Source of the DNA: Acidimicrobiia bacterium
Lineage (GTDB): Bacteria; Acidobacteriota; Vicinamibacteria; Vicinamibacterales; UBA2999
Reading direction: 5' to 3'
DNA length: 56,047 bases
Assembly: GCA_016871375.1 (NCBI GenBank)
Contig: VFYY01000004.1
Coordinates: 1-56,047 of the forward strand
Shown here: in pieces, positions 124 through 43,436 of the stretch
Numbering within the stretch: position 1 is the stretch's first letter
Layout of the letters: every line of letters starts with the position of its first letter
Program-made: the position numbers and the translations under genes
The notes under the pieces: generated by a model
What the model was told of the DNA's origin: nothing
What the model saw: the letters and a program-made list of their open reading frames with translations, nothing else
The model's database searches: none

Positions 124-235
124 CTAGCGCGGTTTCGACTTCTTCGTAGTGTCCGGCTTTAGCCGGACCACACACGGCGGTGCCGATCAACGTGGTCCGG
201 CTAAAGCCGGACACTACGACGTTTCAGAAACCGCT
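124..235. repeat. Palindromic REP-like element, copy E1 (two 26-bp inverted arms plus GCGGTTTC ends)
   Basis: CTAGCGCGGTTTCGACTTCTTC-GTAGTGTCCGGCTTTAGCCGGACCAC-spacer-GTGGTCCGGCTAAAGCCGGACACTAC-GACGTTTCAGAAACCGCT; the arms are perfect 26-bp inverted repeats. Confidence 0.95.
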
Positions 236-16124: not shown

Positions 16125-16192
16125 AGCGGTTTCTGAAACGTCGTAGTGTCCGGCTAAAGCCGGACACTACGAAGAAGTCGAAACCGCGCTAG
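16121..16192. repeat. REP-like element, short copy E4 (single hairpin, no spacer)
   Basis: CTAGAGCGGTTTCTGAAACGTC-GTAGTGTCCGGCTAAAGCCGGACACTAC-GAAGAAGTCGAAACCGCGCTAG. Confidence 0.95.
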
Positions 16193-23023: not shown

Positions 23024-24286
23024 ATGCGCACGCGCGTCCACTACGCCTGGGTCATCGCCGGCGTCACCTTCGTCGTGCTGCTCGTGACGGCGGGCATCCG
23101 CGCCACGCCGGGCGTGCTGATGGTGTCGCTCGAGGCGGAGTTCGGGTGGACGCGGACGGTCGTCTCGGGGGCGGTGGCGATCAACATCGCGCTCTTCGGG
23201 CTGCTCGGCCCCTTCGCCGCGTCGGTGATGGACCGGTGGGGACTGCGCCGCGTCGTGCTCGGCGCGCTCGCCCTGCTCGGCATCTCGGTCGCGCTCACCA
23301 CGCGCATGCAGAACCAGTGGCAGCTCACGCTGCTGTGGGGCGTGCTGGTCGGCACGGGCACGGGCGTGACGTCGATGGTGCTGGCGGCCATCATCGCCAA
23401 CCGCTGGTTCGACGCGCGGCGCGGCCTCGTGCTGGGCGTGCTCTCCGCCGCCAACGCGACGGGACAGCTGATCTTCCTCCCGCTGCTCGCGCAGCTCGCC
23501 GCCGAGCGCGGCTGGCGCGCGGCGGCGCTCCTCGTCGCCGGCGCGGCGGCCGTGGTCTTCGTGGTCGTGCTGGTCTTCATGCGCGACCGGCCGGAAGACC
23601 TCGGGCTGCGGCGCTACGGTCGCCCGCACGACGCGCCGCCGGACACGGGACCGAGGCCGATGGCGCCGATGGCGGCGCTCGGCTTCGCGATGCGGTCGCG
23701 CGCGTTCTGGATCCTGGCGGGGACGTTCTTCGTCTGCGGCGCGAGCACCAACGGCCTCATCGGCACGCACCTCATCGCCGCCTGCCACGACTACGGCATC
23801 GCGGAGGTGCGCTCGGCGCAGCTGCTGGCGATGATGGGCATCTTCGACATCATCGGCACCACCGCCTCGGGCTGGCTGACCGACCGCTACTCGAGCCGTC
23901 ACCTGCTCTTCGGCTACTACACGCTGCGCGGGATCTCGCTGCTCTTCCTGCCGCTGACGCTGCAGAGCGGCGGCAGCCAGCTGGCGTGGTTCGCGGTGTT
24001 CTACGGTCTCGACTGGATCGCCACCGTGCCGCCGACCGTCCGGCTGACGAGCGAGGCGTTCGGCCGCGAGAACACCGGCGTGATCTACGGATGGATCGGG
24101 GCCAGCCACCAGCTCGGCGCCTCGATGGCGGCGATCGGCGCCGGCACCATCCGCCAGGTGACCGGCGACTACCAGACGGCGTTCTGGATCGCCGGCCTGC
24201 TCTGCGTCGCCGCCGGCACGTCGTTCCTCACCTTCGGCCGACGCACGTTCTCCAAGGCGCCGGCGGCCGCGCTCGCGACGGCCTGA
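23024..24286 (+). CDS. MFS transporter (oxalate/formate antiporter-like)
   Basis: 12-TM pattern, GVLMVSLEAEFGWTRTVVSGAVAIN, MDRWGLRRVVLGAL, ANRWFDARRGLVLGVLSAANATGQL, GWLTDRYSSRHLLFGYY. Confidence 0.93.
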   Translation: MRTRVHYAWVIAGVTFVVLLVTAGIRATPGVLMVSLEAEFGWTRTVVSGAVAINIALFGLLGPFAASVMDRWGLRRVVLGALALLGISVALTTRMQNQWQLTLLWGVLVGTGTGVTSMVLAAIIANRWFDARRGLVLGVLSAANATGQLIFLPLLAQLAAERGWRAAALLVAGAAAVVFVVVLVFMRDRPEDLGLRRYGRPHDAPPDTGPRPMAPMAALGFAMRSRAFWILAGTFFVCGASTNGLIGTHLIAACHDYGIAEVRSAQLLAMMGIFDIIGTTASGWLTDRYSSRHLLFGYYTLRGISLLFLPLTLQSGGSQLAWFAVFYGLDWIATVPPTVRLTSEAFGRENTGVIYGWIGASHQLGASMAAIGAGTIRQVTGDYQTAFWIAGLLCVAAGTSFLTFGRRTFSKAPAAALATA

Positions 24287-24346
24287 GCCCACTAAGAGCA
24301 CAAAGACGATCAGCCACAAAGGCCACTAAAGCTTTTTCACAAAGGT

Positions 24347-24516
24347 CACAAAGGACGACGTTCGACCGCGCCGCCGAAGGCGGCAGCGCGAACGTCGAGA
24401 GCGCGAGCACAAGCCGATCTGCCCGTCGAAGCGGCTTGTGCTCGCGCTCTCGACGTTCGCGCTCTCGGCCTGCTGCGCAGGCCGGCCGGTCGAACGTTGC
24501 CTTGGTGTCCTTTGTG
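24347..24516. repeat. Large branched inverted repeat between convergent genes
   Basis: Perfect 31-bp arms 24386-24416 / 24432-24462 with 15-nt loop; outer arms CACAAAGGACGACGTTCGACC (24347-24367) / GGTCGAACGTTGCCTTGGTGTCCTTTGTG (24488-24516). Confidence 0.92.
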
Positions 24517-24575
24517 TCGTGATCCGGGTGTAGACGGCTTTGTGGCAAAACCGTCTTCGTGTCCTTGGTGGGAAG

Positions 24576-26651
24576 TTACTCGACGAACGGCTCGATGCCC
24601 GCCGCCTCGAGCACCCGCCTGGCGGCAGGCGTCGTGAAGGACAGGAGCAGCTCGCTCGCGCCCACCTCGTCACGCGTGTTCGCGCACACGCCGCCGGTGA
24701 ACCCGATCCACGTCTGCAGCTCCTGCGGGATGCGGCCGACCAGCTGCACGCCCTTCACGCCCGTGATGCGCGACGCCACGACGACGACGTACTCGGCGCC
24801 GCCGTCGGCGACGACTTCGACGTTGTACTCGCCGGGCATCGGCTTCATCTTCGGCTTCATCTGGCGCGTGATGCCGAGGCGATCGACGAGGCTGACGAAG
24901 TAGCGGCCGCTGGCGCCGTCGCCGGGATAGGCGACCGATGTCGCGCCGAGCAAGGTCTTTGTGAACGCCGCGGTGGTGGAGATGTCGGGCCTGGGCGCGC
25001 CCTCGCGCATGCCCATGCCGATGCCGGCGCGGCCGATCACCGTACGCGTGGCCGCGACGACCTTCTCCTTCCTGATCAGCGCGTCGAGGTTCTCCGGGTT
25101 GAGCACGGCGACGTCGCACGGCTCGCCGGCTTCGATCGTCCGCTGCGTCTCGGGATTCACCGCGAAGCGGACGTTGACGCGGCGCCCGGTCGCGCGTTCG
25201 AACTGCGACGCGATGCCGGCCACCGCCACGCGCGGGCCGTTACCGCTGAGGAGCGTGAGGGCCGGCGTCTTCGCGGCCTCGAACTTCGTGCGCAGCGCCG
25301 CGCGGTCCACCGCCGCCCCGCGCATGTAGACGGCCGAGATCCGCCGCGTGTTGTCGATGTCCTCGAGCGGGTTGGCGTCGAGGACCAGGAAGTCGGCGCT
25401 CTTCCCTGCCGCCACGGTGCCGACCTCCGTGAGCTTCAGAAATTCCGCCGGGTTGCGCGTGGCCGCCGTGATCGCTTCCGCCGGCGTGAGCCCGGCCTCG
25501 ACCATGCTCGCCATCTCGATGTGCGAGCCGAAGCCGAAGTAGAACGCCCCGTTGGTCGCGCCCGCATCGTCGCCCAGCCCGAACCGGATGCCGGCGGCCT
25601 TCAGCGCCTGCACGCCACGCGGGACGATGCCGGCCTTCCAGCGGGCGGCGGCGTCGGCAGGCGCGGCCGGCCGTTCGAGCGCGGCGATCTCCTCGGCGGA
25701 GAACGTCTCGCGCAGCAGCGGATCGTCGATCCACGCGGGCCGCCGGCCGAAGATGTCGTTGCGCGTGCTCCAGAGCGTGAGGAAGACGAAGACGTTCGGG
25801 CGCCGGCGGAACAGCCCGATCAGCTCCTCGTCCATCGCCGTGCCGTCGCGCCACGGCGGGTGCACCAGTCCGTCGATGCCCGCCCGCATGATCCCCTTGA
25901 CGTCGTCCTGCGCGAAGGCGTGCGTGACCGCGACGAGGCCCTGCGCGTGCGCCTCGTCGATGGCCGCGGTGTAGATCTCCGGCGTGAGCTTCTTCACCGT
26001 GCCCTCGCGATCGTCCACCCAGATCTTCACGAACTGATCGATGTTGCGCGCCTCGAGCTCGCGGACGGCGGCGCGGGCCTCCTCCGGCGTCGTGACGCCG
26101 TAGGGCGCGTCGCGCAGCGGCGGCGCCGGCCCGCCGAGCGGCATCGCCAGGCCGCGGCCCGCGGTGAGGAACCGGGCGGTGTTCGGCAGGGGATTGGCTC
26201 TCAGCTCGTCGCGGAGCGCAAAGCCGGCTTCCCGCTCGGCGCCCATGCTCATCACGGTCGTCACGCCGTGATACGCGAAGCGCTGAAGGTGATCGATGAG
26301 GTTCTCGCGCGTGTAGTTCTCGGCCGTGAAGCTTGCGCCCTTGCGGTAGCCGAGATGCGCATGCGCGTCGACGATCGCCGGCATGACGGTCTTGCCCGTC
26401 AGGTCCACGCGCGCGGCCCCATCGGGCGCCGTGACCTCTCCCCTGCGGCCGACGCGCGTGAAGACGCCGTTCTCGACGAGGAACGCGGAGCCTTCGATCG
26501 GCGCCTGCTCGTCGCCGATGATGAGCCGCGCGCCTTCGAACAGCGTGGCGGTCGATCCGGGTGCGGGCTGCGGTTCAGAGGGCGCCTGCGAGCACGCGGC
26601 CGCCGCCATCGCCAGTACGCACGCGAGCGCGGCTACGGAACGGACAGCCAT
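24576..26651 (-). CDS. Lipoprotein-type metal-dependent amidohydrolase fused to C-terminal type-2 periplasmic-binding (ModA/SBP_bac_11-like) domain
   Basis: Amidohydrolase: VDAHAHLGY, VKIWVD, AVTHAFAQDDV, GLGDDAGA, GKSADFLVLDANPLEDI. C-terminal ~230 aa: VAVAGIASQFERATGRRVNVRFAV...CDVAVLNPENLDALIRKEKVV...RAGIGMGMREGA..DISTTAAFTKTLL...VGRIPQELQTWIGFTGGV. Signal LACVLAMAAAACSQ. Confidence 0.85.
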   Translation of the reverse strand: MAVRSVAALACVLAMAAAACSQAPSEPQPAPGSTATLFEGARLIIGDEQAPIEGSAFLVENGVFTRVGRRGEVTAPDGAARVDLTGKTVMPAIVDAHAHLGYRKGASFTAENYTRENLIDHLQRFAYHGVTTVMSMGAEREAGFALRDELRANPLPNTARFLTAGRGLAMPLGGPAPPLRDAPYGVTTPEEARAAVRELEARNIDQFVKIWVDDREGTVKKLTPEIYTAAIDEAHAQGLVAVTHAFAQDDVKGIMRAGIDGLVHPPWRDGTAMDEELIGLFRRRPNVFVFLTLWSTRNDIFGRRPAWIDDPLLRETFSAEEIAALERPAAPADAAARWKAGIVPRGVQALKAAGIRFGLGDDAGATNGAFYFGFGSHIEMASMVEAGLTPAEAITAATRNPAEFLKLTEVGTVAAGKSADFLVLDANPLEDIDNTRRISAVYMRGAAVDRAALRTKFEAAKTPALTLLSGNGPRVAVAGIASQFERATGRRVNVRFAVNPETQRTIEAGEPCDVAVLNPENLDALIRKEKVVAATRTVIGRAGIGMGMREGAPRPDISTTAAFTKTLLGATSVAYPGDGASGRYFVSLVDRLGITRQMKPKMKPMPGEYNVEVVADGGAEYVVVVASRITGVKGVQLVGRIPQELQTWIGFTGGVCANTRDEVGASELLLSFTTPAARRVLEAAGIEPFVE

Positions 26652-27604
26652 CGCCTGGCGAGCTCCGCATAGGTGGTCGAATTCGACACGCGGCTGAGGA
26701 TGTCCGCCGACAGCGTCGGGCGCGGTGTCACCTCGCCGTTGGTCCGCAGCTCCTGCAGCATCGCGTCGCACAGCGCCATCGCCGGCTGCGACACCATGTT
26801 GGGGTGGATGTTGACCTTCATCCGCGTGTTCGTCAGCAGCGGCTTCGCCACGCCGATGCCGAGCAGCGGCACGGGCAGCTCGCCGGCGATCCGGTTGATC
26901 TGCTCCGCGCTGAACCCGGTGAGGCTGTTCATGACGACGTCGGCGCCCGCGCGGGCGAACGCCTGGCCGCGGCGGATGACTGTGTCGAGATCCTCGGCAA
27001 CCGTGCGGCCGATGATGACGAAGTCGCGGTTCGTCCGCCCGTCCACCGCCGCCTCGAGCCGCTCGCGCATCCGCTCGACCGTCTGCAGCGCGCTCGTGGT
27101 CGGTCCGCCCGGGCCGGCCCACGTTTCCATCTTTTTCGGGTTGACGCTGTCTTCGATATGCAGCGCGGCGATGCCCGCGCGCTCGTAGAGCTGCACCGTG
27201 CGATAGACGTTCAGCGACGTCTCGCCCGCCTGGTCGGCGTCCACGATCGCGGGAATCCGCACCTCGCGCGCGATGCGGCCGGCGATCTCGACCATGTCGG
27301 TGGTCGTGATGATGCCCCAGTCAGGGGCGCCGAGGTACGTCATCGACATCATGTTGCCGCCGATGTAGACGGCGTCGAAGCCGCGCGCCTCCGCGAGCTT
27401 GCCGGCGATGACGGTGTACGCCTCGGGCGCGGTGAGCAGGCCCGGCGCGCGCAGCAGCGCGCGCAGTCTGGCGAACTTCGAGGCCCCGTCCGGTGGGGGC
27501 GCCTGTGCCTGGACCGGTACCGCGTTCAACCCGAGCGTCGCGGCGGCGCCCGCTGCCGCGGCCGCCTGCTGCAGGAAATCACGACGTGATGCTGGACTGT
27601 CCAT
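26633..27604 (-). CDS. Isocitrate lyase/PEP phosphomutase family protein with Tat signal
   Basis: SRRDFLQQAAAAAGAAATLGLNAVPVQAQA; LRALLRAPGLLTAPEAYTVIAGKLAEARGFDAVYIGG, PAIVDADQAGE, ALHIEDSVNPKK, VIIGRTVAEDLDTVIRRGQAFARAGADVVM. Confidence 0.9.
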   Translation of the reverse strand: MDSPASRRDFLQQAAAAAGAAATLGLNAVPVQAQAPPPDGASKFARLRALLRAPGLLTAPEAYTVIAGKLAEARGFDAVYIGGNMMSMTYLGAPDWGIITTTDMVEIAGRIAREVRIPAIVDADQAGETSLNVYRTVQLYERAGIAALHIEDSVNPKKMETWAGPGGPTTSALQTVERMRERLEAAVDGRTNRDFVIIGRTVAEDLDTVIRRGQAFARAGADVVMNSLTGFSAEQINRIAGELPVPLLGIGVAKPLLTNTRMKVNIHPNMVSQPAMALCDAMLQELRTNGEVTPRPTLSADILSRVSNSTTYAELARRWLSVP

Positions 27605-27636
27605 ACGCTCCTCTGCTGGAGCCGACAGTGTAAGTC

Positions 27637-27954
27637 ATGGGCGGCGCGCGACGGACGCCGCGCGCCGCCGGTCCGGCGTGTTATCGGGCGCAGGTGCAGC
27701 TCTTGCCGCAGTTGCACGTCTGGCCACAGCGGCATCCCGCACGGCGGCCCTGGGTCGAGTACGACTTTCCCCGGTTCCGCCTGGGAGCCGGCTACGGCGC
27801 CTATCAGTCACGCGGCGCGGTGTGGCAGCACAAGCCGTTCGTCACCGCGACCGTCAAGGTGCCGCCCGTCGGCAACGTGGAGCTCTGGCTGCAGCGGCTC
27901 CACGACAATCACCTCACCGCGCAGATCCGCTTCGCGAAAGTATTCGTGCACTAG
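27637..27954 (+). CDS. Doubtful ORF, possible C-terminal fragment of a beta-barrel-like protein
   Basis: FRLGAGYGAYQSRGAVWQHKPFVTATVKVPPVGNVELWLQRLHDNHLTAQIRFAKVFVH looks protein-like; N-terminal part does not. Stop TAG lies in REP element E5. Confidence 0.3.
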   Translation: MGGARRTPRAAGPACYRAQVQLLPQLHVWPQRHPARRPWVEYDFPRFRLGAGYGAYQSRGAVWQHKPFVTATVKVPPVGNVELWLQRLHDNHLTAQIRFAKVFVH

Positions 27955-28065
27955 AGCGGTTTCTGAAACGTCGTAGTGTCCGGCTTGAGCCGGACCACGT
28001 CGATCGGCACCGCCGTGTGTGGTCCGGCTAAAGCCGGACACTACGAAGAAGTCGAAACCGCGCTA
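27951..28065. repeat. REP-like element, full copy E5
   Basis: CTAGAGCGGTTTCTGAAACGTC-arm-GTCGATCGGCACCGCCGTGTGT-arm-GAAGAAGTCGAAACCGCGCTA. Confidence 0.95.
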
Positions 28066-29034
28066 AGGCGACAGCGGCGCGAAGAGCTCCTCGATCGGGA
28101 CGACACGCGGCGCGAGGTGCTGCTCGAACAGGTACTGGGGCAGCGTCTCCAGCGAGCGCCGGTTACGTTCGACCCCGTACGGCCAGAAGTCCTCACCCAT
28201 GCTCCGGCGGGTCTCCTCCGTCTCGGCCACGATCCAGGGCAGCGTGATCTTCAGCGCGTCGATCTCGACGAGCTGCTCGTACGCCCACTGCTTCGCCCGC
28301 TCGAACGCGTCGAAGAGGCTCCTGGCCATCCACGGGTTCGCGTCGTACACGTCCCTGCGCACGACGATGACGTGCATGATCGGAAAGATGCCGGTCTTCT
28401 CGAAGTAGGTTTTTTCCACCCGCCGGTAGTCCTCGAACAACCGGCGCACCGGCGACCCGGGACGGGCGAGCGCCTGCGGCGCGTTGGGCGAGATGATGGC
28501 GTCGAGGGTCCCCTGCTCGAGCATCGGGCCCATGTCCTGCTCGAGGGGCATTCGTGTGAGCTTCACGCCGGGCAGGTCGAAGTCGATGCGCGTCGGCCGC
28601 TGCAGGCCGTCCTGCGTGCCGCTGAACCACTCGCTGGTCTCGGGGGCCACGCCGTACTCGTGCAGCAGCAGGCCGCGCGCGAATACCGCGGCCGTCATCG
28701 AGTACTCGGGAACCCCGATGCGCGTGCCGACGAGATCCGCCGGCTGACTGATCCCCGCGTGCCGGTTCACGTAGATGCAGGAGTGCCGGAAGAGCCGCGA
28801 GGGAAACACCGGGATGGCGATGAACGAGTCGTCGCCCCGCGCGCGGAGCATCGTGTAGTTGGAGAACGACAGCTCCGAGACGTCGAACGCCTTGTGGCGC
28901 AGCATGCGGAAGAACGTCTCGCTCGGCCTCGAGATGACCGGCGTCAGCTCGATGCCGTCCGGCACGATCGTCCGGTCGATCAGCGGGCGGACCCGGTCGT
29001 AATCCCAGAAGGCGATGGTCAGCCGCAGAGCCAT
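28063..29034 (-). CDS. 4,5-dihydroxyphthalate decarboxylase-like / PBP-II-fold protein
   Basis: LRLTIAFWDYDRVRPLIDRTIVPDGIELTPVISRPSETFFRMLRHKAFDVSELSFSNYTMLRARGD...GTRIGVPEYSMTAAVFARGLL. Confidence 0.85.
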   Translation of the reverse strand: MALRLTIAFWDYDRVRPLIDRTIVPDGIELTPVISRPSETFFRMLRHKAFDVSELSFSNYTMLRARGDDSFIAIPVFPSRLFRHSCIYVNRHAGISQPADLVGTRIGVPEYSMTAAVFARGLLLHEYGVAPETSEWFSGTQDGLQRPTRIDFDLPGVKLTRMPLEQDMGPMLEQGTLDAIISPNAPQALARPGSPVRRLFEDYRRVEKTYFEKTGIFPIMHVIVVRRDVYDANPWMARSLFDAFERAKQWAYEQLVEIDALKITLPWIVAETEETRRSMGEDFWPYGVERNRRSLETLPQYLFEQHLAPRVVPIEELFAPLSP

Positions 29035-29790
29035 CTATTCGACGCCGGCGTCGCGCAGCGTCCGCCGCGCGGCGGCAGTGGTGATGAAGCGGAGGAACGC
29101 CGAGGCGGCGACCGGCTCGCGCGCGGCGTGCATCACCACCGCGTCGTAGGTGGTGAAGTTCTGCAGCGGCGCAGGCAGCGGACCGGCATACTGCAGACCT
29201 GTTGCCCGGATGGCGTCTGACCTCGCGAGGAACGCGAGCTCGCTGCCGCGCGCGGCCGCGAGGCGCTCCATGACCGCCTCCCCATTGAGGACGCGGACGG
29301 TCTTCGCCTCGACGCGATCGGCGATGCCGAGCTGCGCGAGCAGCGTCTCGATGTACGTGCCGCTCGAGCCCTGGTTGTAGATGACCGCGTCCGCCGCGAG
29401 CAGTTCGCGGCGCAGCGCATCAGCGGACGAGACGTCGGGTGTGGCCGCGCCGGCGCGAACGACCACCGCCACGCCGACGCGGCCGACCGTCGTGCGCGAC
29501 GCGGCAGCGGCGCGGCGATCCGCGATCGCCTGGTCGACGACGGCCGCGGGCGCGATGAGGACGTCGGCGGCGTCGCCGGCCGCGAGCCGCGCCGTCAGTT
29601 GCGGCGCGTTGCCGATCTCGATGCGGACGACGTCACCGGTGTCACGCCGGTACTGGGCGGCGAGCTGCGTCACGCCCGCTTCCAGCGCGCCCGCGCTCAT
29701 CACGACGAGTTCCGCCGCGAAGAGCGTGGCCGCGCCGGCCGCGAGCACCACCGGCAGGACGAGTCTCAGAAATCGACCGTCAGGTTCCAC
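29035..29790 (-). CDS. Molybdate-type extracellular solute-binding (ModA-like, PBP-II) protein; start approximate
   Basis: LVVMSAGALEAGVTQLAAQYRRDTGDVVRIEIGNAPQLTARLAAGDAADVLIAPAAVVDQAIADRR..VGRVGVAVVVRAGAATPDVSSADALRRELL. Confidence 0.87.
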   Translation of the reverse strand: MEPDGRFLRLVLPVVLAAGAATLFAAELVVMSAGALEAGVTQLAAQYRRDTGDVVRIEIGNAPQLTARLAAGDAADVLIAPAAVVDQAIADRRAAAASRTTVGRVGVAVVVRAGAATPDVSSADALRRELLAADAVIYNQGSSGTYIETLLAQLGIADRVEAKTVRVLNGEAVMERLAAARGSELAFLARSDAIRATGLQYAGPLPAPLQNFTTYDAVVMHAAREPVAASAFLRFITTAAARRTLRDAGVE

Positions 29791-32700
29791 CGGACGAAGC
29801 GCGGCGTGTAGATCGCGGTCGGGTTGTTCCACGTCCCGCCGTTGCCCGCGTTGTTGGCGCTGAACTGGTAGATGTTCTCGTACGTCGTCGTGTAGTTCGT
29901 GTTGAGCAGGTTGCCCAGGTCCACGCCCACGTCGAAGCGCCGCTGGCCCCACCGCAGGATCTTCGCGAAGCGCATGTCGATCTGCGTGCGCCGGTTGTCC
30001 GCGTACAGGCGGTGGTCGTTGTCCAGGATCTCGATGGTCGTGAAGCCGGTGGCGAGGCCGCCCGGGGGCAGCCGGCCCGCGGCGGCCTGGATCACCGAGT
30101 TCGGCACCTGCCACGTGGCGATGCGCTCGAGCGGCGCCTGCGAGCGCACGGTGGCGCTGACGAGCACGTCCACCTTCGGCACGGTGTAGGAGCCGAGCCC
30201 GCGGATCGTCGTCTGCCACGGATCGGCATCCAGGCAGTTGCGCAGGTCCTTGATCACGCCGCCGTTGGTCAGCGTCCGGCCGAGCGCGGGAATGAACGCA
30301 CCGCCGACGGCGACCACCGCGACGTCGCTGACGCGCGCGGTCTCGCAGGCATCCTCGACCGACCGGCCGGTCTGCGTGCCGAACTGCAGCGTCAGCCCCT
30401 GGCGGAGGCGCGCGTTGACCGTGAAGTCCACGCCGTGCCAGTACTGGGAGCGCGCCGGGCCGAAGTCCTCCTCGAAGGTGACGTAGTTCTGCGCGCCGCG
30501 CGAGGCGGCCGCCGCCGTGACCATCGACACCGTGATCGGGTACCCGCCGCCGCCGGGCAGCCGGTTATCGCGCGGCGCCGTGAGCGTGAACGGCTGGTAG
30601 TCCTCGGGCCCCCGCAGGCGGTTGTCGATGACCTTGTTGCCCAGGAACCAGCGGCGGTTGTAGGCGACCTCCGCCGACACGCGCGGGATCAGCTCCTGCT
30701 GCAGCGTGACACCCCACTGCCAGTCGGCCTGCCGCACGCCCCACCCGCGCAGCGTGTCCTGGTTGACCTGCTGGACGTTGCCGGAGACGGCGCCGAAGTT
30801 CAGCAGGTCGCCGGTCAGCGCCGCGCACTCTCCGTTGGCGGCGAAGTTCATGATGGTGCAGTCCACCACCTTGTTGCCGTTGGTGTCGTTCCAGTTCCGC
30901 GCCGCGGTCCGGACGATGCGGACCGCCGGGTTGTTGCTGGTGTACTCGCTGTCGTTGGTGGCGGCATCGAGGTACTTGCCCAGGTTGAACTTGAGCGCCG
31001 TGCGGCCGTCGCCGAACACGTCGTAGGCGGCGCCGAACCGCGGCGTGACGTCGTTGAATGCATCAACGCCGGGCGTGCGCTCGAACCTGATCGGCGCGGC
31101 GTTGAACGGCGAGGTTTTCGTCGTGCCGTTGCCCTCAGCCGGGCTGAAGCTCCACGCGCGGTCGTAGCGCAGCGCGCCCTGCAGCGTCAGCCGCCCCCGC
31201 GTCCACCGGTCCTGGACGTAAAAGGCAGAGGTCCCCGTGCGGTCCGCCGTATTCCAGTCCGGCAGCCGGAACGTGAACTGATTCGGCACGCCCTGGTTGA
31301 AGCGGTACTGCAGCCCGGCATCGGGAGTGGTGAAGAAGAAGTTCACGCGGATGTAGGCGCCCTGATAGCCGACCTTCAGATCGTGCGACCCGGTGACGTA
31401 GGAGGCCGAGGCGCGCCAGTTGTTCGGGTTGGCGTAGTTGGGGCTGATCGCCGGCACGCCGCGGTAGGTATAGTTCGCGCGCGGCGCGAACGGCAGCCCG
31501 GTCGCGGGATTGATCGCGGTGGACTGCTCGACGACGGAGATCAGATCGAACACGCCGTCCGGAGGCTGCCGGCCCGTCGTCCCGCCCTTGAACGAGAAGC
31601 GCGTGACGCCGGCCTCGAGGAGCAGCCGGTTCGTCAACGGCGCGCTCCAGGTCCCCTGCGTCACGTAGTAGGGCGTGTTGCCGAAGTAGTTCGGGTTCGC
31701 CTCGGGCGAGACCGTCGCCGTGCCGGCCGCGATCCAGTTGTCGCCGCGCGTGTTGCAGCCGTCGGTGTCCACCTTCAGCGGCGACCCTTCGCAGCGGCGC
31801 TGGTATTCCTGGTTGAACGAGACGCGGTTGCGCGGGGTGACCTGCATCGTGACGCGCGCGATGTACGTCTCGCGTCCCTGCAGCTGCCGTGCGTTCACGC
31901 TGGCGTCCCCCACCCAGTCCCACCGCGACGCGTCGGAGGTGTTCCGGTTCGCGACGACACCCTGGACCGACGACGCCGTATCGAGCTGGCGATAGCTGCC
32001 GAAGAACCAGATGCGATCGCGCTGAATCGGGCCGCCGTACGACGCGCTCCAGTCGTAGGAGCCGATGATCCCGGGAGGTTCCCTGAGACCCACCGCGCGC
32101 AGCTCGTCGGTCAGGTTGTTGCCGCGCGACCAGTCGCCGGCGTTGTTGACGAACGCCTGCCCGCGGAACGTGTTGCCGCCGGAGCGCGGCACCAGGTTCA
32201 TCACCGGGCCGCCGATGTCCGACTCGCCGAGGCCGCCGGCGACCGACACCGACACCTCGTCCACGTTGATCGAGTCGAGGATGTAGGTGGACACGCCGCC
32301 GCCGTTGAACGGGGCGGCCACGGTCATGCCGTTGATCGTCATGCGCCCTTCGTTGATCGGGCCGCCGCGCGCGGCGAAGAACGTCATCGTCGGCGAGGCG
32401 GCCAGCGCCCCGTCGTTGACGGTGAGGCCGGGCACCGCGTTGAGCAGCGTGCCGACCGAGCGGTTGCCGGGGATGGCGGCGACGACGTCGGCGCTCAGCA
32501 CCGTCTCGCGCTGCGTGGTCTGCACGTCGACGACCGGCGTCTCGCCGGTGACGGTGACCGTCTCCTCGAGCGTCCCGACGCTCATCTCGGCCGGAATCGC
32601 CAGCGTGGCGGTGCCACTGAGCTCGATGCCGTCGCGCCTGATCACCCTGAAGCCCGGGAGCGTGAAGGTCAGGGAGTAGGTGCCGGGGTTGAGGCCGGTG

Positions 32701-32903
32701 ATGCGGTACTGCCCCGTGCCATCGGTGATGGCCGTGCGTACCTTTTCAATCAAGGCGGGGCTGGCCGCCTCGACGGTGACACCGGGCAGCACGGCGCCCG
32801 ATTCGTCTCTCACGGCGCCCGTGAGAGTGCCTTGCGCAAACGCCAACGACGGCAGGAAGGCCGTGATCGCCAGGACCAGGACGGCCTTCGACACCACGCG
32901 CAT
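29766..32903 (-). CDS. TonB-dependent receptor with carboxypeptidase-regulatory-like domain
   Basis: GTLTGAVRDESGAVLPGVTVEAASPALIEKVRTAITDGTGQYRITGLNPGTYSLTFTLPGF; EETVTVTGETPVVDVQTTQRETVLSADVV; barrel repeats; C-terminal WNLTVDF. Confidence 0.94.
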   Translation of the reverse strand: MRVVSKAVLVLAITAFLPSLAFAQGTLTGAVRDESGAVLPGVTVEAASPALIEKVRTAITDGTGQYRITGLNPGTYSLTFTLPGFRVIRRDGIELSGTATLAIPAEMSVGTLEETVTVTGETPVVDVQTTQRETVLSADVVAAIPGNRSVGTLLNAVPGLTVNDGALAASPTMTFFAARGGPINEGRMTINGMTVAAPFNGGGVSTYILDSINVDEVSVSVAGGLGESDIGGPVMNLVPRSGGNTFRGQAFVNNAGDWSRGNNLTDELRAVGLREPPGIIGSYDWSASYGGPIQRDRIWFFGSYRQLDTASSVQGVVANRNTSDASRWDWVGDASVNARQLQGRETYIARVTMQVTPRNRVSFNQEYQRRCEGSPLKVDTDGCNTRGDNWIAAGTATVSPEANPNYFGNTPYYVTQGTWSAPLTNRLLLEAGVTRFSFKGGTTGRQPPDGVFDLISVVEQSTAINPATGLPFAPRANYTYRGVPAISPNYANPNNWRASASYVTGSHDLKVGYQGAYIRVNFFFTTPDAGLQYRFNQGVPNQFTFRLPDWNTADRTGTSAFYVQDRWTRGRLTLQGALRYDRAWSFSPAEGNGTTKTSPFNAAPIRFERTPGVDAFNDVTPRFGAAYDVFGDGRTALKFNLGKYLDAATNDSEYTSNNPAVRIVRTAARNWNDTNGNKVVDCTIMNFAANGECAALTGDLLNFGAVSGNVQQVNQDTLRGWGVRQADWQWGVTLQQELIPRVSAEVAYNRRWFLGNKVIDNRLRGPEDYQPFTLTAPRDNRLPGGGGYPITVSMVTAAAASRGAQNYVTFEEDFGPARSQYWHGVDFTVNARLRQGLTLQFGTQTGRSVEDACETARVSDVAVVAVGGAFIPALGRTLTNGGVIKDLRNCLDADPWQTTIRGLGSYTVPKVDVLVSATVRSQAPLERIATWQVPNSVIQAAAGRLPPGGLATGFTTIEILDNDHRLYADNRRTQIDMRFAKILRWGQRRFDVGVDLGNLLNTNYTTTYENIYQFSANNAGNGGTWNNPTAIYTPRFVRWNLTVDF

Positions 32904-32951
32904 GGGGCCTCCTTCAGTACCGGGTTGAGGGGTACCACGCCGGCGGATGAC

Positions 32952-33329
32952 TTAACGGCCGTAGACGTTGATGGTCTTCCCGTCGGCGAGCACGACGTGT
33001 TCGAGCCGGATGATCTTCTGGCCGTCGGCGAACTGGTAGCCGGTGCCGGTGATCACGTCGCCCGGCTTCACCGTCGTCCTGGTCCAGCCGCTCGCTTCCA
33101 TCCGATTGAGCGCGGGACCGCCGATCAGCCACTGCTCCATCTGGCCGTTGTCGGCCTGGACCTGCAGCGTGATCATCGGGTGCGGGTTCACCCAGTTGAA
33201 GTCCTTCACCACGCCCTTCACGGTGACGAGCCGGGCGCGACTGACGGGCCACTGGTGGTGCGCGGACAGCGGGACTGCCGCGGCGATCAGCGTAAGGACA
33301 AGGAATACCGGAACAAGCACAGCCTTCAT
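32952..33329 (-). CDS. DUF6152-like small secreted protein
   Basis: LSAHHQWPVSRARLVTVKGVVKDFNWVNPHPMITLQV; same layout as 42935-43324. Confidence 0.82.
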   Translation of the reverse strand: MKAVLVPVFLVLTLIAAAVPLSAHHQWPVSRARLVTVKGVVKDFNWVNPHPMITLQVQADNGQMEQWLIGGPALNRMEASGWTRTTVKPGDVITGTGYQFADGQKIIRLEHVVLADGKTINVYGR

Positions 33330-33504
33330 CGTGGCGCTCCTTCCGGGGGTGATTCTAGGTCAGAACGCGCGTCGGCGGCTGAGATACTGCGGTGCCTCCC
33401 TTGCCCGTCTTCCGGAGATGAGTGAAGCGCCGGCCCCGAAGCCGCCGCCCGGAGAGTCGACCGCGTCCCTCATCGGCGGCGGATCGTGACGGTGACGCTG
33501 ACGT

Positions 33505-43324: not shown

Positions 43325-43436
43325 AGCGGTTTCTGAAACGTCGTAGTGTCCGGCTTTAGCCGGACCACACACGGCGGTGCCGATCAACTTGGTCCGGCTG
43401 AAGCCGGACACTACGAAGAAGTCGAAACCGCGCCAG
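43321..43436. repeat. REP-like element, full copy E6 (spacer inverted relative to E1/E5)
   Basis: CTAGAGCGGTTTCTGAAACGTC-arm-ACACGGCGGTGCCGATCAACTT-arm-GAAGAAGTCGAAACCGCG. Confidence 0.95.

Follow-up and report, generated by a model that had tools for sequence, protein, structure and literature searches.

The stretch of DNA analysed here (the window, 56,047 nucleotides) encodes a 691-residue protein in which an amidohydrolase runs without a stop into a solute-binding domain of the SBP_bac_11 family (SBP). The fusion is real, conserved and rare, and it is built from two known families. The features of the gene are as follows.

24576-26651, reverse strand: fused gene, amidohydrolase and SBP_bac_11, 691 residues, uninterrupted frame (ORF reading, Pfam)
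26592-26651, reverse strand: hydrophobic signal peptide, residues 1-20, with a lipobox-like AAAC end (Cys20) (sequence)
25269-26561, reverse strand: amidohydrolase domain, residues about 31-461 (Pfam PF01979/PF07969)
26355-26363, reverse strand: metal ligands H97 and H99, HxH (alignment to relatives)
26025-26027, reverse strand: K209, lysine expected to be carboxylated (alignment to relatives)
25920-25922, reverse strand: metal ligand H244 (alignment to relatives)
25860-25862, reverse strand: metal ligand H264 (alignment to relatives)
25566-25568, reverse strand: D362, residue of the metal set (alignment to relatives)
25263-25289, reverse strand: short junction or linker, residues 455-463, the least conserved part (six residues longer in the L052 version)
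24579-25262, reverse strand: SBP_bac_11 (PBP-II) domain, residues 464-691 (Pfam PF13531; PDB profile match to ModA structures)

Architecture of the fused protein

The single reading frame proposed in the first-pass annotation was confirmed at these coordinates and on this strand, together with its pairing of an amidohydrolase with a PBP-II domain, both Pfam matches lying above their gathering scores. The N-terminal half matches Amidohydro_1 (PF01979; 7.7e-24, 85 bits against a gathering score of 25), and Amidohydro_3 (PF07969) is also matched in this part above its gathering score. Residues 465-686 match SBP_bac_11 (PF13531; 3e-27, 96 bits against a gathering score of 25) over profile positions 1-226 of 227, which rules out that the C-terminal half is a mere extension of the amidohydrolase. 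Both domains are complete. The N-terminus is lipoprotein-like, as annotated: the hydrophobic signal peptide ends in AAAC at residues 17-20, a Pro-rich stretch follows directly after Cys20, and a cysteine is found at the equivalent place in L052, the only other fusion (see below). The N-terminal sequence makes the fused protein a putative lipoprotein. An AlphaFold2 model calculated from a two-sequence alignment (pLDDT 33, pTM 0.22) gave no usable picture of the domain interface, most likely because the alignment comprised only these two sequences.

The metal ligands recognised earlier correspond to H97, H99, K209, H244 and D362, all intact, and H264 completes the set; both fusions keep all six residues, as do nearly all of some 50 relatives. 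The same arrangement (HxH, Lys, His, His, Asp) is shared with the cog1228 enzymes, which include the Xaa-Pro dipeptidases, the L-arginine carboxypeptidase Cc2672 (3MTW), 2P9B (a possible prolidase) and the M38 aminoacylases. In contrast to these enzymes the fusion carries a C-terminal SBP domain, and it scores only 123.8 bits with the Xaa-Pro dipeptidase family NF051886, whose NCBIfam cut-off is 500. In characterised cog1228 prolidases and aminoacylases the substrate is reported to be contacted by an oxyanion-hole His and by a Tyr (in HxY) that binds the substrate carboxylate (PMC10781821). The fusion has GGPAPP where 3MTW has GGHCDS, and H244-A-F246 instead of HxY. The fusion, like nearly all the relatives that we examined, thus lacks both of these residues, so that a dipeptide or N-acyl amino acid substrate should not be assumed. 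Amidohydrolases are common in the window's genome (19 matches to the query, both halves counted).

In respect to the C-terminal half, the earlier term 'ModA-like' is correct for the fold only. The domain shares the family PF13531 with ModA, and its profile match to ModA structures (5e-27) indicates the PBP-II fold, but it misses the TIGR01256 equivalog cut-off of 62.5 bits (43.3 for the whole protein, 46.7 for the domain alone). Ser12, Ser39 and Tyr170, the ligand residues of E. coli ModA, are read from alignments as Gly472, Asn499 and Val625 in the fusion. Unlike ModA, this half has no signal peptide of its own, is fused to an enzyme, and is not accompanied by modB/modC ABC genes. Molybdate transport, or identity with ModA, was rejected since the ligand residues are replaced and the modA cut-off is missed. 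The fused domain and its free orthologues share the motifs LSGNG, YPGEGASGKYFV, MPAEYNVEVV and VVVVASRI in the alignment, and therefore probably have a common ligand.

Conservation and origin of the fusion

When 84,980 prokaryote genomes were scanned, in a search that detects close relatives only and could miss distant fusions, the sole relative returned was L052, from a metagenome-assembled genome of Candidatus Sulfopaludibacter sp. SbA3 (Acidobacteriota). Its fusion is a single 704-residue ORF (L052 1178-3292), 71% identical over query residues 9-691, with an Amidohydro_1 match of 72.2 bits over profile positions 1-343 of 345. The same PEP-mutase-family gene lies upstream, with the same 19-nt overlap. 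Two genome sets, one from the order (162) and one from the phylum (396), with 42 genomes in both, gave no full-length match outside the window's genome; no further amidohydrolase-SBP fusion appeared in about 520 genomes of the phylum, and none at 80% query coverage among 72,556 plasmids. The architecture, described as unusual from the outset, is indeed rare, with full-length proteins only from the window's genome and L052, and no description of an amidohydrolase-SBP_bac_11 protein was found in the open-access literature that we searched.

The two fusions are separated by a dS of about 0.95, with dN/dS of 0.19 for the hydrolase, 0.26 for the SBP domain and 0.52 for an 18-residue linker stretch. 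The junction, where conservation is lowest in the mature protein, has an identity of 44%, versus 75% for the hydrolase and 69% for the SBP domain. These ratios indicate that purifying selection acts on both halves. The window's genome is a draft of 295 contigs, yet the chance that the gene is an artefact (a chimeric contig, or a frameshift or stop codon lost through sequencing error) is negligible, as the independently assembled L052 shares the fusion, junction and upstream gene at 71% identity and the variation is in frame, with a purifying pattern over both halves. An assembly join near 25260 is excluded on the same grounds, the two assemblies being fused at the identical point, and the single ORF of L052 rules out two separate genes.

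The hydrolase exists as a separate gene in five genomes of the same family (G013, G026, G003, G011 and G015; 68-72% identity), and in G011, G003 and G015 it follows the PEP-mutase gene. The stop codons of these stand-alone genes fall where the fused protein runs on, e.g. RAALRAKWTGARATR followed by the stop versus RAALRTKFEAAKTPALTLLSGNG. The join thus connects the position of the stop codon of the separate hydrolase with the mature start of the binding protein, and neither the hydrolase nor the mature SBP loses any part. Free orthologues of the SBP domain, each with its own signal peptide, are found in G011 and G015 (66-68% identity), and the nearest relatives of the domain are free SBPs of other genomes (64-68%). 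We propose that an amidohydrolase gene of the stand-alone kind fused with an orphan (ABC-free) SBP gene, whereby the SBP signal peptide was lost. The reverse event, in which an ancestral fusion was later split, was rejected: no SBP remnant lies past the stop codons of the five stand-alone hydrolase genes.

In the SBP tree the two fused domains are sisters (97/96), within a clade that holds the free SBPs of G011 and G015. In the hydrolase tree the two fused copies and the five stand-alone genes form a 7-member clade (100/100), in which the fused hydrolases are not sisters and there is a weak preference for joining G000 with G003 (80/89; AU p 0.016). As the trees disagree, the simple history cannot be told apart from recombination or from a single fusion followed by loss in G003.

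Neighbouring genes and other SBP loci

The neighbours of the fused gene are:

26633-27604, reverse strand: PEP-mutase/isocitrate-lyase family gene with a Tat-type signal, the upstream partner, overlapping the fusion start by 19 nt
28063-29034, reverse strand: relative of a PBP-fold enzyme, 48% identical to a record annotated 4,5-dihydroxyphthalate decarboxylase
29035-29790, reverse strand: free SBP_bac_11 protein, paralogue of the fused domain (Pfam; 33% identity)
23024-24286, forward strand: MFS transporter, convergent with the fusion (nearest NCBIfam below cut-off)

No ABC gene is present among the neighbours examined (PEP-mutase, MFS, Pht5-like). The kinship of the fused SBP half to the free SBP at 29035-29790, pointed out in the first-pass annotation, is true homology (33% identity over 225 residues, E 3e-26), but the two are not nearest relatives, which lie in other genomes. 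The start of the 28063-29034 gene abuts the stop codon of this free SBP gene; relatives of 4,5-dihydroxyphthalate decarboxylase are often labelled ABC substrate-binding proteins in databases. For the MFS protein the nearest NCBIfam is L-lactate MFS transporter, of the oxalate/formate antiport family, and the match remains below cut-off. No Rfam families were found in 24300-33500. A REP-like element of 70 bases, consisting of two inverted copies of TAGTGTCCGGCTTNAGCCGGAC, is complete at window positions 147-216, 27974-28043 and 43344-43413, with partial copies at 586, 3897 and 16144-16169. We counted its core pattern 286 times in the genome of the window and 348 times in G039, but most relatives lack it altogether (the reversed pattern, used as control, gave 0). 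The four Y1_Tnp (PF01797) matches in the window's genome could be REP-associated transposases.

The two closest free SBP genes start within 4-nt overlaps with hydrolase genes: ATGA with an Amidase (PF01425) gene in G011, and GTGA with an Amidohydro_1 gene in G015, where an Amidohydro_3 gene follows the SBP gene. Overlaps of 4 nt are typical of translationally coupled partners. Because both genes overlap amide-hydrolase genes, the fusion is probably the covalent version of a pre-existing hydrolase/binding-protein pair. The coupled hydrolases come from other subfamilies (that of G015 is 25% identical to the fusion hydrolase), hence a common substrate is not implied. Most of the remaining free SBPs in the wider clade had no detected amide-hydrolase gene within 1.5 kb, and the hydrolase-SBP link, sampled at two loci, is a trait of a small clade and not of SBP_bac_11 generally.

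A more distant SBP gene in G026 overlaps an MFS gene, and on Burkholderia and Paraburkholderia plasmids an MFS gene immediately precedes the SBP gene; the surroundings of these SBP genes yielded no ABC genes. The MFS protein that accompanies the plasmid SBPs and the one near the fusion are not closely related. Orphan SBP_bac_11 genes paired with an MFS permease and, on plasmids, beside dctA, without ABC genes (L163 4089-6106 (-); L157; L160), possibly represent SBP-assisted secondary transport. To our knowledge, the partners of SBPs without an adjacent transporter are mostly unknown.

Further attachments of SBP_bac_11 were observed in the order. They comprise a 6-bladed NHL propeller with SBP_bac_11 in one 616-residue frame (L111 1581-3428 (+), G077), a lipoprotein-like SBP_bac_11 with DUF4440 (L116 2686-4269 (+), G002), a tandem SBP-SBP protein (L117 3380-5122 (+), G076), and CarboxypepD_reg, TPR and SBP_bac_11 in a frame of about 585 residues in two species (G033 and G117; L108 3081-4835 (-) and L109 1816-3573 (+)), adjoining a TonB-type outer-membrane gene. 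In the case of L094 799-2163 (+) (G033), the first 74 of 187 profile positions of a 3-keto-disaccharide hydrolase domain precede SBP_bac_11, and the frame is either a truncated enzyme or an assembly collapse. Only the TPR arrangement was seen in more than one species; the others are candidates, each observed once in a draft genome. Several other long frames around SBP matches were rejected as spurious frames of GC-rich DNA, a normal signal peptide being present at the SBP start. The remaining cases suggest that the SBP_bac_11 domain has become mobile in the order.

Possible function of the fusion

We tentatively favour, at a little under even odds, an exported and probably lipid-anchored two-domain protein, derived from the fusion of a hydrolase gene and an orphan SBP gene, which serves the tethered capture of a substrate or product. 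Within the periplasm, the binuclear metal site would hydrolyse a small amide, lactam or ester, the tethered SBP domain would trap the substrate or product by the active site and prevent its diffusive loss, and a non-ABC transporter would then take up the retained compound. The capture-and-hydrolyse function suggested in the first-pass annotation is retained here as a hypothesis. It is consistent with the persistence of the fusion in two independent genomes with both halves constrained, the sister relationship of the SBP domains, a join that leaves both parts whole, the intact metal ligands, the overlap of the nearest free SBP genes with amide-hydrolase genes, and the association of distant SBPs with MFS and not ABC genes. 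Against it, only two species have the fusion, so that any functional advantage may be slight; the hydrolases coupled to SBPs in G011 and G015 are of other subfamilies; and for most of the other free SBPs in the wider clade no amide-hydrolase gene was detected nearby.

A further argument against tethered capture comes from the exported chorismate mutase-cyclohexadienyl dehydratase (CM-CDT) fusions, in which the PBP-fold half is a proven enzyme of the same pathway and which showed no catalytic benefit and no channelling (PMC10520331). Like these, the present protein is exported, occurs very rarely and joins an enzyme to a domain of solute-binding-protein ancestry; unlike them, its PBP-fold half looks like a binding protein. 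The lack of benefit in CM-CDT also speaks for an uncoupled fusion, with two functions merely co-expressed and co-exported and selected for stoichiometry or location, as do the restriction to two species and the existence of unfused free pairs with 4-nt overlaps. That the fusion has lasted through a dS of about 0.95, under constraint in both halves, excludes decay, not uncoupled fusion, and we give this explanation roughly one chance in four.

Slightly less probable is an allosteric sensor, in which a ligand of the SBP domain (e.g. product or pathway intermediate) switches the hydrolase on or off. Both domains are complete and under purifying selection, and the lytic transglycosylase MltF offers a precedent, being an exported hydrolase with a second, ligand-responsive regulatory domain, N-terminal in that case, on one chain (PMC10746161). 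The fusion differs from MltF in its unrelated hydrolase fold, opposite domain order and different substrate, and the short, poorly conserved junction (44%), with its 6-residue length difference, argues against a precise mechanical linkage. It is improbable that the PBP-fold half is a second enzyme and the protein a bifunctional catalyst: cyclohexadienyl dehydratase is such an enzyme derived from solute-binding proteins (PMC10520331), and a PBP-fold decarboxylase relative is encoded next door (28063-29034), but all of the nearest solved structures are binding proteins of the ModA type, and no catalytic residue set was recognised.

In general, the conserved fusion and the coupled gene pairs name amide hydrolases as the partner for one clade of orphan SBPs, and tethered capture offers a testable hypothesis, that of a binding module attached to a periplasmic hydrolase. 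The recurrent NHL, TPR, 3-keto-disaccharide-hydrolase-like and DUF4440 fusions in the order point to a more general trend. A broader idea, which we regard as unlikely though worth stating, is that the SBP_bac_11 proteins of this lineage left ABC transport to become exchangeable modules for binding or sensing on exported enzymes and scaffolds, the fusion being a true capture-and-hydrolyse or ligand-gated enzyme. If true, several such attachments, covalent or by coupled translation, would have arisen convergently, the amidohydrolase fusion among them.
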